The position numbers were made by a program, and so were the translations under genes. Positions 3,234 through 27,431 of a stretch of DNA of 48,433 bases are shown here, piece by piece. The first letter of the stretch is position 1. Every line of letters begins with the position of its first letter. The DNA comes from Bacillota bacterium (GTDB taxonomy: Bacteria > Bacillota > Sulfobacillia > UBA8153), in contig SLSY01000002.1 of assembly GCA_007130145.1 (NCBI GenBank), positions 1-48,433 of the forward strand. Reading direction: 5' to 3'. The notes beneath the pieces are model-generated. The model had not been told where the DNA came from. It ran no database searches and saw only the letters and a program-made list of their open reading frames with translations.

Positions 3234-4274
3234 TCAGGTCGCGAACACTTCTGTCATCTTTGATCGCGATGGTGCCGTAATCAGGCCTCGATCGGTAATC
3301 AGCGCCGTGATGTATTCAGCCGGGGTTACATCGAAGGCAGGGTTATAGACCTTGACCTCAGCGGGCGCCACAACCAGTGCGCCGACTTGGCGGACTTCGT
3401 CCGCCTGTCTCTGTTCAATCACGATCTCTTCGCCGCTGGCCAGTTCCATATCCACGGTGGAAGTAGGTGCTGCTACATAGAAAGGTATGTTATGTGCGCG
3501 GGCCAACACGGCCAAACCATAGGTTCCAATCTTATTGGCAACGTCACCATTGGCAGCGATACGATCGGCTCCAACGATAACCACATCGACCTTGCGTTGC
3601 TGCATCAAATGTCCCACCATGCCGTCGGTAACCAGTGTCACCGCTATACCGTCCTGCATCAGTTCCCAGGTGGTAAGACGCGCTCCCTGCAATAGCGGCC
3701 TTGTTTCCGACGCATAGACATGCAGGTTTCGACCCTTGGCATGGGCAGCACGAATCACGCCCAGGGCCGTTCCCCAACCCGAAGTAGCCAGAGCACCGGC
3801 GTTGCAGTGTGTGAGTATGTTGGCACCGTCGGCCACCAGCTCTTGACCGTGTTCTCCCATGGCCCGGTTCATGGCCAAATCCTCTTGCGCCATGCAGTAG
3901 GCCTCTTTCCAGAGGCGCTCCAGCAACTCCTCGCCCTGCTTGACCGCCTCGTTGGCAACACGCAACATGCGGCGGCAAGCCCAGGCCAAATTCACCGCAG
4001 TGGGCCTGGTTGCTTCCAGGTCTTTGGCCGCCTGCGCGAGAAAAGTTAGTCTATCCTCGCCAGGAGGCACCTGACGCACAGCTAAGACCATCCCATAAGC
4101 GGCAGCAATACCGATGGCAGGCGCCCCGCGCACGGCCAGCACGGAAATGGCATCGGCCACATCCTGGTAGGTGGTGCAAACCAGGTAGTTCTCTTTCCCG
4201 GGCAATAAGCGCTGATCCAACAGGAGCAATCGGTCCTCCCGCCATTGTATCGGCGTGGTAATGTGACTGTTCAT
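3234..4274 (-). CDS. mtnA: S-methyl-5-thioribose-1-phosphate isomerase
   Basis: 346 aa; 'VRGAPAIGIAAAYGM', 'LTHCNAGALAT', 'VVIVGADRIAANGDVANKIGTY' are typical of MtnA/eIF2B-like isomerases. Confidence 0.93.
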   Translation of the reverse strand: MNSHITTPIQWREDRLLLLDQRLLPGKENYLVCTTYQDVADAISVLAVRGAPAIGIAAAYGMVLAVRQVPPGEDRLTFLAQAAKDLEATRPTAVNLAWACRRMLRVANEAVKQGEELLERLWKEAYCMAQEDLAMNRAMGEHGQELVADGANILTHCNAGALATSGWGTALGVIRAAHAKGRNLHVYASETRPLLQGARLTTWELMQDGIAVTLVTDGMVGHLMQQRKVDVVIVGADRIAANGDVANKIGTYGLAVLARAHNIPFYVAAPTSTVDMELASGEEIVIEQRQADEVRQVGALVVAPAEVKVYNPAFDVTPAEYITALITDRGLITAPSRSKMTEVFAT

Positions 4275-5072
4275 CTACCTTGCCGCCTTTAGTATGCCGC
4301 TGCAATCGCAGTGGCGTTCCGCCGGCATCGTAGCAATGAGTTCCATCAGAAGCGAACGGAGTTTCTCGTTGTTATCCTGAAACACGCGAAGAACGTCTCC
4401 GTGGGTTACGGGAGTGATATCCTCTCTTCCCGCCAAACCGACATCGTAGTCGGTGATCAAGGAAATGTTGAGATAACACATGCCGCACTCCAGAGCCAAC
4501 ACCACTTCAGGATACTGGGTCATATTAATGACTTCCCACCCCTGCCCAGAGAACCAGCGGCTTTCCGACCGAGTAGAGAAGCGAGGTCCTTGAATGACCA
4601 CCACAGTCCCTCCGACCTTAACCGGAATGGCCAGTTTATCCGCAGCTAGCGCGGCCTGCTCCCGCATCTCCTGACAGTAGGGTTCTGCTGCGCTGATATG
4701 CGTGGTAATAGGTCCATCATAAAAGGTATCTTTACGACCGGACGTGCGGTCGACGAATTGATCGCACAACACAAACTGGCCGGGCTTGACGTCAGGGTGT
4801 AGGCTGCCAGCAGCACAGGGCCCGATCATGCGCTCCACACCGAGAGCCTTCATGGCCCAGACGTTGGCACGATAGTTGATCATGTGGGGCGGCAGTGAGT
4901 GATCTCGCCCATGGCGAGGGAGAAATGCTACCTTCTTGTCGGCTATAGTAGCGATAGCAATGGCATCGCTCGGTGCGCCGTAAGGCGTATCCAGCACGAC
5001 TTCCTTGACATCCTCAACCAGCTGATAAAACCCACTACCACCGAAAACACCGATTTGCGCTTGATCCTTCAT
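4275..5072 (-). CDS. mtnP: S-methyl-5'-thioadenosine phosphorylase
   Basis: 265 aa; 'IGVFGGSGFYQLVEDV', 'FLPRHGRDHSLPPHMINYRANVWAMKALGV', 'NMTQYPEVVLALECGMCYLNI' are typical of MTAP. Confidence 0.93.
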   Translation of the reverse strand: MKDQAQIGVFGGSGFYQLVEDVKEVVLDTPYGAPSDAIAIATIADKKVAFLPRHGRDHSLPPHMINYRANVWAMKALGVERMIGPCAAGSLHPDVKPGQFVLCDQFVDRTSGRKDTFYDGPITTHISAAEPYCQEMREQAALAADKLAIPVKVGGTVVVIQGPRFSTRSESRWFSGQGWEVINMTQYPEVVLALECGMCYLNISLITDYDVGLAGREDITPVTHGDVLRVFQDNNEKLRSLLMELIATMPAERHCDCSGILKAAR

Positions 5073-23133: not shown

Positions 23134-23979
23134 GTGGCGCGGGTGCTACGAAGAGGGCAGATGCGCGGCAAACTCAAGAAAGAAAGCAGTTACACCGTGT
23201 TGAACTTAGCGGTTGAGTCCATCTTGTTTAATCCGTACCAACCACGCAAGACAGAAGTGGGCCGAGATATTGATGAGTTGGCCGCATCCATCCGGCAGCA
23301 CGGAGTGCTGCAACCGGTCGTGGTGCGAAGAGTGGGCCGGGGGTACGAATTGATAGCCGGTGAACGGCGGCTCAGGGCCTGCAAGCAGGCGGGCGCTAAA
23401 ACTATTCCTGCCATCGTTCGCTCGGTGGGCGATGAAGAGCTGGCCCTCTTGGCGTTGGTGGAGAACTTGCAGCGCCGGGGTTTGAACGTGCTTGATGAAG
23501 CGGAGGGATACCGTAGCCTCATGAGCAAGTTTGCGCTCACGCAGGAGGAAATTGCAGCACAAGTGGGAAAGAGCCAACCCACCATCGCCAACAAACTTCG
23601 ACTGCTCAAACTCCCTGGTGCCGTGCAGGAAGAACTGCGACGAGAGGCGCTAACCGAGCGGCATGCTCGTGCCTTGCTCAGATTACCTTGTGACAAGCAG
23701 CAGCTGGAGATCATGGAGACGGTGCTTGCTGGCAACCTCAATGTGGCTCAAACCGACGAACTGGTGGATGAGGTAACCAAGGAGGCTTCACCCCATCCCC
23801 CGGTCAAGCGACAGCGGGTACGTGTTTTCAAGGACCTGCGCATCTTCCTCAATTCGTTCCGTCAGGTAGTGGCGGCACTGAGGCGCACGGGGGTAGAGGC
23901 GGTCATGGAAGAGGATGAGGATGAACGTTGCTGGCGCATTCAAGTCAGTATCGCCAAGCCCGGCGAGAAAGGGGTCTAA
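23134..23979 (+). CDS. noc: Nucleoid occlusion protein Noc / ParB paralogue
   Basis: ParB-like 'NPYQPRKTEVGRDIDELAASIRQHGVLQPVVVRRVGRGYELIAGERRLRACKQAG' and HTH 'TQEEIAAQVGKSQPTIANKLRLLKL'; position between rsmG and soj as in B. subtilis. Start uncertain. Confidence 0.85.
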   Translation: MARVLRRGQMRGKLKKESSYTVLNLAVESILFNPYQPRKTEVGRDIDELAASIRQHGVLQPVVVRRVGRGYELIAGERRLRACKQAGAKTIPAIVRSVGDEELALLALVENLQRRGLNVLDEAEGYRSLMSKFALTQEEIAAQVGKSQPTIANKLRLLKLPGAVQEELRREALTERHARALLRLPCDKQQLEIMETVLAGNLNVAQTDELVDEVTKEASPHPPVKRQRVRVFKDLRIFLNSFRQVVAALRRTGVEAVMEEDEDERCWRIQVSIAKPGEKGV

Positions 23980-24153: not shown

Positions 24154-24198
24154 GTGGATAGAGTTATCGCCATTGTGAACCAAAAGGGCGGAGTAGGG
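24154..24198 (+). CDS. parA: Chromosome-partitioning ATPase ParA/Soj, exon 1 (15 codons)
   Basis: GTG GAT AGA GTT ATC GCC ATT GTG AAC CAA AAG GGC GGA GTA GGG = (M)DRVIAIVNQKGGVG, preceded by GGGAGGAC RBS; reading continues in frame at 25886 with KTTTAVNLAAALAEAG. Confidence 0.93.
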
Positions 24199-24736
24199 GT
24201 GCGTCCGAGATGGTTCGCGTTGCAGTGCCCTGAGGGGTCGCCGATGAGAGCGAGATCGGTGTGACTGTCCGGCTCCAGCTGCAGTCGAAAGGCTATTTTA
24301 GCAGCGAACATAGCATGCCGGAAGGGGGGGAGCCCAGCGCTTGCCCGCCTCTTTGCAGTCAAGGTACAGCATGGTGAAGGCCGGATTGCTTGAACTCTAG
24401 TTTCCCAGCCCAAACCGCCGGGAACACCCGAATGGATCGGGTGTTGGGAGTGGTCTGCGAGACAAGTCCCTGCTTGCCTCGTACGCTCTGACCCTCCTCA
24501 TACGCAGGATGATTGCGTGAGGGAAACGGACGGAGCACCTACACTGTACGGGAAGTCATTCTGTGCGCGAGCTAACCGGAGATTGCCTAACGTGGAGACG
24601 TTTCATCAAGGCAACGGAGTCCTCATAGTAGTCGGAGAGCGGGAAAGCCGCTTACAACCTGCTTGTGCAGGGCCCTCTGGGGCGGGCGAAGGAGGACAGG
24701 TCACCGGGTGACCCGAGAACTACGGAGGTATGCGAA

Positions 24737-25810
24737 ATGCAAAGAGCTGAAGTGGTCCTGGGGGCCCTGAGAAGAAATGCCGAGAAAGAAGGATTTGTGT
24801 TTTCCAGGGTCTACCGCTACCTTTACAACCCCGGGATGTACCGGGAAGGCGTTAGAGCGCGGGTGGATGAGTTGGGGGACCAGCTGAGAGCAGAGCGTTA
24901 CTATCCAGCAGGTAGAGAAGAAGACGCATGGGTAGAGGAGGCAGTGATGTGCCTGCTTGAAGCCATGTTCCCTCAAGAGCGCGACGATGCTGACACCAAT
25001 CGGTGGGCGCAGGTAAAGGCCTCACCAGAGTGTCGCTGGGCCTTGCGCTATGATATCGAAACTGCCTGCGATGGATGGCACGCTCTCTATCGCCTACTCG
25101 GCCCCCACCTGCAGGATGGGCGTTTTTGGGAGTTGCTGCACCGGTTTCACTTGTTTCAGGGCAAGGACGGGAGAGTGGCAAAGATGCTGAAGCGACTTGC
25201 CTGTGGGAGGCTGCAAGCGTCTATGCAGGCCATGCATCCTGCAACCAGGCGTTTCATCGAGGGGCATGAGGTCCTCTTTTTGGGACGTGTGGAGTCCAGC
25301 ATGAACCAGCAACGCGCTGCTATCGAGAACGTCGCCGGGGCCAGAGGAGTGGATGTCAAACTGGAGATCGCAGCGGATATCCGCCGGGGAAGCGTCCGGC
25401 TTGGCCCCTATGCGGTGAGAGCCGGCCGCCGGCGTTGCTTTCTCCTGATTCCGGGAGACTCCCTGCGGCGGTGGCGGCGGCCATTCACCTACCGCGGTCA
25501 TCCCGCTGCCCGCAACGATCGTTTGTACCTGACAGCCTCCAGGATTGTCCAGATCTACCGGCAAGAACTGACAGCATGGTTTCAGACATTCCGCGAGGCA
25601 GATAACCTGCGCGCAAGGCTGAGGGAGTTTCACTTCTATCATGGCCAAAGCCTTCTGAAGACCTTGGCCAAGAAGGATGGACTGTCTCTCAGGCAAGCAG
25701 CTGCCAAGTACCGGGTGCTTCAAGACCGTGATGAAGGTAGAGCGGGCCTTTCAGGGGGAGACCAGCACAGTTTCTATCCGTTACAGATTCGGCAGCTTTT
25801 CTCAGCGTGA
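24737..25810 (+). CDS. Group II intron-encoded protein, divergent RT/maturase lacking the YADD catalytic motif
   Basis: N-terminal 'VFSRVYRYLYNPGMY' (RT0-like), 'WALRYDIETACDGWHALYRLLGPHLQDGRFWELLHRF' (RT3/motif A-like), 'LLIPGDSLRRW...IVQIYRQELTAWFQTFREADNLRARLREFHFYHGQSLLKTLAKKDGLSLRQAAAKY' (thumb/X-like); ATG follows ACGGAGG; lies in intron domain IV. Confidence 0.75.
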   Translation: MQRAEVVLGALRRNAEKEGFVFSRVYRYLYNPGMYREGVRARVDELGDQLRAERYYPAGREEDAWVEEAVMCLLEAMFPQERDDADTNRWAQVKASPECRWALRYDIETACDGWHALYRLLGPHLQDGRFWELLHRFHLFQGKDGRVAKMLKRLACGRLQASMQAMHPATRRFIEGHEVLFLGRVESSMNQQRAAIENVAGARGVDVKLEIAADIRRGSVRLGPYAVRAGRRRCFLLIPGDSLRRWRRPFTYRGHPAARNDRLYLTASRIVQIYRQELTAWFQTFREADNLRARLREFHFYHGQSLLKTLAKKDGLSLRQAAAKYRVLQDRDEGRAGLSGGDQHSFYPLQIRQLFSA

Positions 25811-25815
25811 CGGGA

Positions 25816-25849
25816 GAGCCGGGTGCATTGAAAGGTGCATGCCCGGTTC
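25816..25849 (+). ncRNA. Group II intron domain V
   Basis: 34-nt hairpin GAGCCGGGTGCATTGAAAGGTGCATGCCCGGTTC, GAAA tetraloop, AGC triad near the base. Confidence 0.93.
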
Positions 25850-25885
25850 GGAGGGGGGTTGAGCGACCGCCTTGATCTACCCTAC

Positions 25886-26644
25886 AAAACGACGACAGCG
25901 GTCAATTTGGCAGCCGCTTTGGCTGAGGCTGGCAAGAGGGTCCTGGTGGTGGATATCGATCCGCAAGGCAATTCCACAAGTGGCCTGGGCCTGGATAAGC
26001 GCGAGATTACGCAGTGTATTTATGATGTACTCATCGAGGGTCTGCCGCTGACTCAAGTTGTGTGCAAGAGTGCTTCTGCCGGCGTTGATGTGGTGCCGGC
26101 GCGGCTGGATCTAGCTGGTGCCGAGGTTGAGTTGGTCTCCATGATAGCCCGGGAGAGCAAACTCAAAGGAGCGCTGGGAACGGTTGGTGGCCAGTATGAC
26201 TTTCTTCTCATCGACTGTCCCCCGTCTCTCGGCTTGCTTACGGTCAACGCACTCACAGCGGCCGACTCCATTTTGGTGCCCATCCAGTGCGAGTATTACG
26301 CCCTGGAGGGCTTGGGGCAGCTGATGAACACCATCAAACTCGTGCAGACACACCTAAATCCCCGGCTTGTTTTGGAAGGGGTGGTGCTGACGATGTTTGA
26401 TGGTCGTACCAATCTCGCCATGCAGGTTGTTGAGGAGGTAAGGCGCTTTTTCCGTGGAAAGGTATATGGCACGGTGATCCCGCGCAATGTCCGGCTGAGC
26501 GAGGCGCCCAGCTTCGGGCAACCCATCATTGCGTACGACGGGAAATCCAGGGGTGCCCAAGCATACCGGGAATTAGCAAGGGAGGTCCTGCAGCATGGCC
26601 AGGAAGGGGCTGGGCAAGGGGCTCAAAGCCCTGATGCCAGATGA
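25886..26644 (+). CDS. parA: ParA/Soj, exon 2 (completes an approximately 267-aa spliced protein)
   Basis: KTTTAVNLAAALAEAGKRVLVVDIDPQGNSTSGLG..., 'LLIDCPPSLGLLTVNAL', 'LSEAPSFGQPIIAYDGKSRGAQAYRELAREVL'. Confidence 0.95.
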   Translation, partial: KTTTAVNLAAALAEAGKRVLVVDIDPQGNSTSGLGLDKREITQCIYDVLIEGLPLTQVVCKSASAGVDVVPARLDLAGAEVELVSMIARESKLKGALGTVGGQYDFLLIDCPPSLGLLTVNALTAADSILVPIQCEYYALEGLGQLMNTIKLVQTHLNPRLVLEGVVLTMFDGRTNLAMQVVEEVRRFFRGKVYGTVIPRNVRLSEAPSFGQPIIAYDGKSRGAQAYRELAREVLQHGQEGAGQGAQSPDAR

Positions 26645-27431
26645 GGTAGAATCCAACCAAGCAGTTGGAGCCAGCGAACTTAATATTGAGGAGATACGAC
26701 CCAATCCCTACCAACCGCGGCAGCGCTTTGACGGAGAGGGCATGAGGGAACTGGTGGAATCCATCCGGCAACACGGTGTGGTACAACCTGTCCTGGTGCG
26801 CAGTGACGGTGACGGGTATCAAATCATAGCCGGGGAGAGACGTTGGCGGGCTGCGCAGCAGGCGGGACAGAAGCGCATCCCCGTTGTGGTGAAGGAATGC
26901 ACTGAACAAGAGATGATGGAGATAGCGTTGGTGGAGAACCTCCAGCGTGAGGATCTGAATGCGCTGGAGGAAGCCATGGCGTATCGCCGCTTGTTGGAAG
27001 AGTTCTCCTTGACCCAGGAACAAGTGGCGGAGCAAGTGGGGAAGAGCCGGTCGCAAGTGGCCAACACCTTGCGGCTTCTCCAGTTGCACCCCATGGTACA
27101 GGAGATGCTCGAGAAGGGAGACCTGTCACCAGGGCATGCAAGAACGCTCTTGGCCATAGGAGATGGATCAGCGCAGGTGAAAATGGCGCAGCGGGTGGCC
27201 CAAGAGGGCCTTAACGTTCGCCAACTGGAGAACCTCATTCGTTTGGGAGCGCGCCGGCCACCGGTGCGGAGGGTTCCGTCTCCCGATCTGCGGTATGTGC
27301 AAGACAGGATAGGAGAGGCCTTGGGCACGCAAGTTCAGATTACTGGAGAGAAGAAAGGGGTCATCAAGATTCGCTTCCATTCCCCCGAAGATTTGGAGCG
27401 GCTCATGGAGCTCTTGTTGGATGAAAACTAG
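26595..27431 (+). CDS. parB: Chromosome-partitioning protein ParB/Spo0J
   Basis: 278 aa; 'KGLGKGLKALMPD', 'IRPNPYQPRQRFDGEGMRELVESIRQHGVVQPVLVR', 'AGERRWRAAQQAG', 'ENLQREDLNALEEAMAYRRL'. Confidence 0.96.
   Translation: MARKGLGKGLKALMPDEVESNQAVGASELNIEEIRPNPYQPRQRFDGEGMRELVESIRQHGVVQPVLVRSDGDGYQIIAGERRWRAAQQAGQKRIPVVVKECTEQEMMEIALVENLQREDLNALEEAMAYRRLLEEFSLTQEQVAEQVGKSRSQVANTLRLLQLHPMVQEMLEKGDLSPGHARTLLAIGDGSAQVKMAQRVAQEGLNVRQLENLIRLGARRPPVRRVPSPDLRYVQDRIGEALGTQVQITGEKKGVIKIRFHSPEDLERLMELLLDEN

Follow-up and report, generated by a model that had tools for sequence, protein, structure and literature searches.

A group II intron within the Walker A motif of parA encodes a reduced ML-class protein, a probable splicing-only maturase

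The parA (soj) gene in the window, the 48,433-nt stretch of Bacillota DNA analysed here, was interrupted after codon 15, within its Walker A motif (KGGVG|KTTT), by a group II intron whose 357-aa protein has lost the catalytic motifs of reverse transcriptase (RT) and the HNH endonuclease. We consider it probable (about 0.83) that the intron descends from an ML-class retroelement and is now fixed and immobile, and that its protein is a splicing-only maturase kept by selection. Motif losses, open reading frames and the selection seen in relatives supported the original prediction that retrohoming was lost while a presumed maturase activity was retained. The same prediction held the protein to be dedicated to parA; this is plausible in the window genome but did not stand as a general rule, since in other genomes related maturases are found in nrdJ introns.

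The split parA gene and its intron

The gene order in the window was mnmE-mnmG-rsmG-noc-parA-parB. The features of the split gene, all on the + strand, were as follows.

24154..24198, +: parA/soj 5' exon with a GTG start (VDRVIAIVNQKGGVG); joined to 25886 onwards it gives a complete ParA
24193..24198, +: IBS1, GTAGGG, the final six bases of the 5' exon; pairs with EBS1 and covaries over 17 introns
24199..25885, +: group II intron, 1687 nt, 5' GTGCG and 3' CTAC; from RF00029, exon joining and the same site in the sister genome (G001)
24468..24473, +: EBS1, CCCTGC, hairpin loop in domain I; complementary to IBS1, and in relatives the loop tracks their own IBS1
24724..24728, +: ribosome-binding site GGAGG of the maturase ORF; GAGGTNTGCG plus ATG is kept in 10 of 10 reduced maturases
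24737..25810, +: reduced intron-encoded protein of 357 aa (putative maturase) within domain IV; homologous by profile to full-length ML proteins, open in the sister
24737..24844, +: N-terminal region/RT0 (MQRAEVVLGALR...RVYRYLYNPGMY); 60% amino acid identity to the sister, lowest regional pN
25037..25072, +: motif A remnant (WALRYDIETACD); alignment to 58 ML proteins
25262..25273, +: GHEV in the YADD position, residues 176-179; same alignment
25529..25726, +: domain X (thumb); 7 of 12 conserved columns, relatives above the PF01348 cut-off
25814..25849, +: domain V; Rfam RF00029
25850..25885, +: domain VI with the probable branch-point A 25879; Rfam RF00029, bulged A as in relatives
25886..26644, +: parA/soj 3' exon (KTTTAVNLAAALAEAG...); Pfam AAA_31 at 3.1e-59, spliced frame

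Joining 24154-24198 to 25886-26644 gave an uninterrupted 267-aa Soj/ParA with the KGGVGKTTT Walker A motif re-formed across the junction, and the unspliced frame met an early stop. The intron carried the D5-D6 elements (62.5 bits to RF00029), the GUGYG 5' end and the AY 3' end of a group II ribozyme, and its probable branch-point A was bulged seven bases before the 3' end, likewise in relatives. The sister genome, which belongs to a different genus and was the only other genome of the order compared, had an intron at the same parA site and phase with an open, equally RT-less ORF of 360 aa, and precise intron removal regenerated ParA in both genera. Soj-type ParA was single in each genome (runner-up match 27%), and the window's genome yielded no second soj. 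The split parA was flanked by two ParB-type genes, a noc-like gene (23134-23979) and parB (26595-27431).

Upstream of the ORF, 138 predicted pairs were common to the window and sister introns, having been predicted from the very two sequences compared, with 34 compensatory changes and none broken. Over 17 introns, 100 of the 102 EBS1-IBS1 pairs formed, and the Watson-Crick count was reached in 0 of 20,000 re-dealings; since EBS1 was chosen by complementarity, this result is supportive rather than independent, and the covariation is its stronger part. The final base of IBS1 in parA, at a glycine wobble position, was G, C, A or T, and the first base of EBS1 matched it (CCCTGC or CTCTAC; GCCTAC; TCCTAT; G-U pairing for T). 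The introns of nrdJ described below had their own EBS1, matching their own IBS1. Group II domain V was also matched on five other contigs of the window's genome, G000 (C258, C142, C129, C105 and C235; L024, L026, L028, L030 and L031), beside intron-protein fragments or none; these appear to be copies in decay, and several belong to a different class.

Homology, motifs and predicted fold of the intron-encoded protein

An open 357-aa frame with a good ribosome-binding site had been noted and was borne out, running from ATG 24737 to the stop at 25808-25810 without an internal stop. Searched alone, the window protein matched none of RVT_1, GIIM, Intron_maturas2 or MatK_N in Pfam, and thus lacked the domain matches of the MatK family proper, matched nothing in NCBIfam, and gave only noise against the PDB; the homology claim therefore rests on profile comparison. 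The proposed domain search succeeded in relatives, where proteins of G447, G386 and G278 scored above the Intron_maturas2 (PF01348) cut-off, with no accompanying MatK_N match, and RVT_1 was found in none of those tested. A two-sequence profile of window and sister picked up full-length group II intron proteins collinearly, with an hhalign E-value of 4.8e-17 over 332 columns against four of them. With ten reduced members the E-value against full-length ML proteins fell to 5.4e-37, and a PDB search with this ten-member profile found LtrA at 2.6e-32. One full-length relative (L006) carried RVT_1, Intron_maturas2 and an AI2M-type HNH. These comparisons point to a shrunken member of the ML-class intron-encoded protein lineage, homologous along its length. 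Two scans of genome contigs returned the sister contig DMHJ01000136.1 only.

The protein was aligned to 58 full-length ML-type intron proteins, and the conserved columns that it retained were counted: RT0 5/16, RT1 1/12, RT2 1/16, motif A 7/17, RT4 2/15, RT5 0/8, domain X 7/12 and D/En 0/12. RT1, RT2, RT4, RT5, RT6 and D/En were thus deleted or unrecognisable, and parts of RT0 and domain X persisted. The replacement of YADD by GHEV was exact in this alignment (the sister reads LGSS), the motif B region contained no PQG, as had been noted from the missing PQGG, and the absence of an HNH endonuclease was confirmed by the empty D/En count. The likeness claimed at RT0/1, motif A and thumb/X stood in part, with RT0, motif A and X partly kept but RT1 nearly gone. 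Motif A retained its Asp, which is Glu/Ala in the sister. In domain X, SLLKTLAKK was kept (25649-25675) and the RGxxNYY core was lost, so that maturase activity may be weak or altered. The marks of a mobile retroelement, YADD and PQG together with the HNH typical of the ML class, were therefore lacking in the window protein.

An AlphaFold2 (AF2) model from two sequences reached a pLDDT of 40.7 and was discarded. When RT relatives were added to the alignment, the resulting model (pLDDT 77.5, pTM 0.65) had as its best Foldseek match LtrA, the protein of the Ll.LtrB RNP (8h2h; E 1.4e-7). Its predicted fold is that of a group II intron reverse transcriptase, a result only partly independent because the alignment includes RT relatives. 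An unrelated fold, which would have told against the original prediction, did not emerge.

In LtrA-type proteins the intron RNA is held by the N-terminal/RT0 region together with thumb/X, and the RT and HNH parts serve mobility. Given this division of roles, the kept and lost parts of the window protein match those of a splicing-only maturase. We propose that an ML-class retroelement inserted into parA, became fixed and lost its mobility, its protein being reduced to the N-terminal/RT0 region and thumb/domain X, the two surfaces that would grip intron RNA. Domain IV of the parA transcript would be translated before splicing, and the resulting maturase would bind its own intron and stabilise the ribozyme fold, whereupon splicing would allow ParA to be made. 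RNA binding, splicing assistance and loss of mobility are what we infer for the window protein. Since the parA frame can be read only after excision and the genome yielded no other soj, selection would retain such a protein; with the Walker A motif split and soj present once, a splicing protein would be needed in the window genome.

Selection on the protein and alternative readings

Between window and sister, identity was about 75% for ParA and about 32% for the maturase. The maturase pair gave pN 0.50 and pS 0.71, pN being lowest (0.23) at the N-terminus, and ParA gave pN 0.155, indicating weaker selection on the window protein than on ParA; dN/dS for this pair was dropped in favour of pN/pS because dS was saturated. 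Pairs of reduced relatives, where calculable, gave dN/dS of 0.13-0.34, values that are only rough because dS was high (1.25-2.5). Fifteen columns were invariant among the ten reduced maturases (M1, Q2, L8, R24, Y26, R27, Y35, D127, R129, Y274, S305, L306, T309, A311 and K313), mostly in RT0 and X. The ORF is therefore conserved in a second genus and under purifying selection in relatives, and the combination expected of a degenerate maturase, namely RT lost, domain X kept and the ORF under selection, was found, with selection calculable in the relatives only.

The rapid divergence of the protein, its relaxed pN and the partial deletion of its RT domain would also suit a dying relic that is open by chance, in an intron whose ribozyme splices alone or via another factor, and an ORF-less parA intron does occur in five other genomes. 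We regard this neutral decay as unlikely, since the reduced ORFs were open in 10 of 10 cases, no stop was observed in window or sister against about 12 and about 9 expected in a random frame of the same composition, and relatives showed purifying dN/dS with constraint centred on RT0 and X. The random decay that the original prediction had named as contrary evidence was thus not what relatives displayed. Moreover, genuine relics bear stops: intron 2 of nrdJ in G244 holds a protein-start relic (EVCATQMAKTVLSIVEEK) interrupted by stops, and the other intron proteins of G000 and G001 are fragments or stop-bearing.

A location in parA would permit control of ParA levels via splicing, and a fast-evolving protein could have acquired a new non-splicing role, for instance in regulating ParA expression; this is improbable, because the retained parts are the intron-RNA contacts of LtrA-type complexes and similar proteins sit in nrdJ introns. 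Mobility might still be served by RT provided in trans from another intron, as degenerate introns are mobilised in Thermosynechococcus (PMC2882425). We consider this very improbable, in that no intact RT was found in the genome, where RVT_1 and GIIM matches were short fragments or stop-bearing, the intron is single copy and occupies the identical site in both genera, and a search for a viral copy of the reduced form found none.

Relatives across the phylum and known systems

We searched 399 genomes of the phylum, mostly drafts, with a KGGVG-then-GTGYG pattern and the two-sequence profile, and introns and ORFs were then extracted exactly. Pattern matches in G523 and G453 were rejected, since the frame upstream of the motif was not ParA. 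G447 had an intron at the same parA site encoding an RT-less 386-aa protein with YEEN replacing YADD. In G386 and G213, where the parA intron pattern was not seen, an intron interrupted nrdJ (class II ribonucleotide reductase, named from sequence) at CGEQ|PLLPY and encoded RT-less proteins of 386 and 385 aa. In family f55, whose five genomes are every sampled genome of its class, nrdJ was split at NSPTLM|NAG (L184, L186, L155, L185 and L187) by an intron encoding an RT-less maturase of 253-258 aa, the smallest encountered, so that nrdJ-borne forms ranged from 253 to 386 aa across the sample. One contig (G307) starts within the nrdJ intron. In a tree of reduced and full proteins the reduced ones fell on one side (91/92), with long branches that leave the number of origins unsettled by the tree.

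In the same five f55 genomes, the Walker A site of parA held an ORF-less intron of 507-527 nt that folds into the six-domain form, its domain VI containing a bulged A, with 36 doubly changed pairs; as maturases lie in nrdJ introns where the parA intron is ORF-less, this maturase family is not confined to parA. Three of the five also had a second nrdJ intron that lacked an ORF (L185 at about 3572-4654; also L186 and L187), and in G244 and G206 this second intron carried broken maturase-start relics, the protein being lost and the intron remaining. Orthology of the f55 parA introns with the window intron was not accepted, since their RNA identity to it (41-46%) was no higher than that of nrdJ introns (47-50%), and the two may have inserted into this site independently.

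Because the only such maturase in f55 lies in nrdJ, gene positions suggest action across genes in this class: we put at even odds that one nrdJ-intron maturase of about 255 aa splices the parA intron in trans, plus the second nrdJ intron in three genomes. If so, f55 would have a common splicing factor for essential bacterial genes, a step towards organelle- or spliceosome-like systems, and the maturase carried by parA in the window would represent this state acting in cis. One intron protein splices ORF-less introns in T. elongatus as well (TeI4), but in that case the helping protein is an RT, and the introns continue to spread (PMC2882425).

Full-length ML proteins such as LtrA of Ll.LtrB and L006 are the parent family, sharing RT0, the thumb/X order and the domain IV location, and differ in having active RT motifs, HNH and mobility. 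Splicing-only degenerate intron proteins are common in organelles. MatK, of the chloroplast trnK intron, has likewise lost the RT catalytic core and kept domain X in an essential, vertically inherited host gene, and it serves several introns, as is suspected of the nrdJ maturases; it differs in its organelle setting and IIA intron, and in that the window protein keeps RT0 and X and loses 1, 2, 4 and 5. MatK is alignable to RT 5-7 and not to 0-4 (PMC4424553). In bacteria, a 2015 review listed O.i.I2, in radC of Oceanobacillus iheyensis, as the sole known intron with a degenerate protein; compared by description only, it resembles the window intron in its ML class, its loss of YADD and other motifs, its open ORF and its housekeeping host gene (PMC4424553). 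It was a single case in radC, whereas the window intron is shared by two genera and has reduced relatives elsewhere in the phylum, in parA and in nrdJ, and a non-exhaustive literature search found no RT-less maturase intron of this type in either gene. The window system is thus MatK-like in its presumed working, of ML-class descent, and bacterial, in housekeeping genes. RT-less maturases span several families of the phylum in parA and nrdJ, some of them located in another gene than the intron that they may serve. Such a set would offer a bacterial system for studying how mobile introns become fixed and come to depend on a factor shared between them; the 253-aa nrdJ protein would be the smallest that may still work as a group II maturase.

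Two further kinds of intron protein were observed. A full-length 605-aa protein in G508 (L151/L162), with YADD and an HNH-like end, has a start (EVCEMQNANTILSMLNQKSQ) resembling that of the reduced maturases and may be near their mobile ancestor. G154 (L182, 496-2879, + strand) and G446 (L183, - strand) had an intron at the same KGGVG|K parA site with proteins of another class, in which YADD reads YGGS or YGGF, with a GIIM match in G446; judged by these motifs, a dead-RT intron of a second type thus shares this parA codon boundary.
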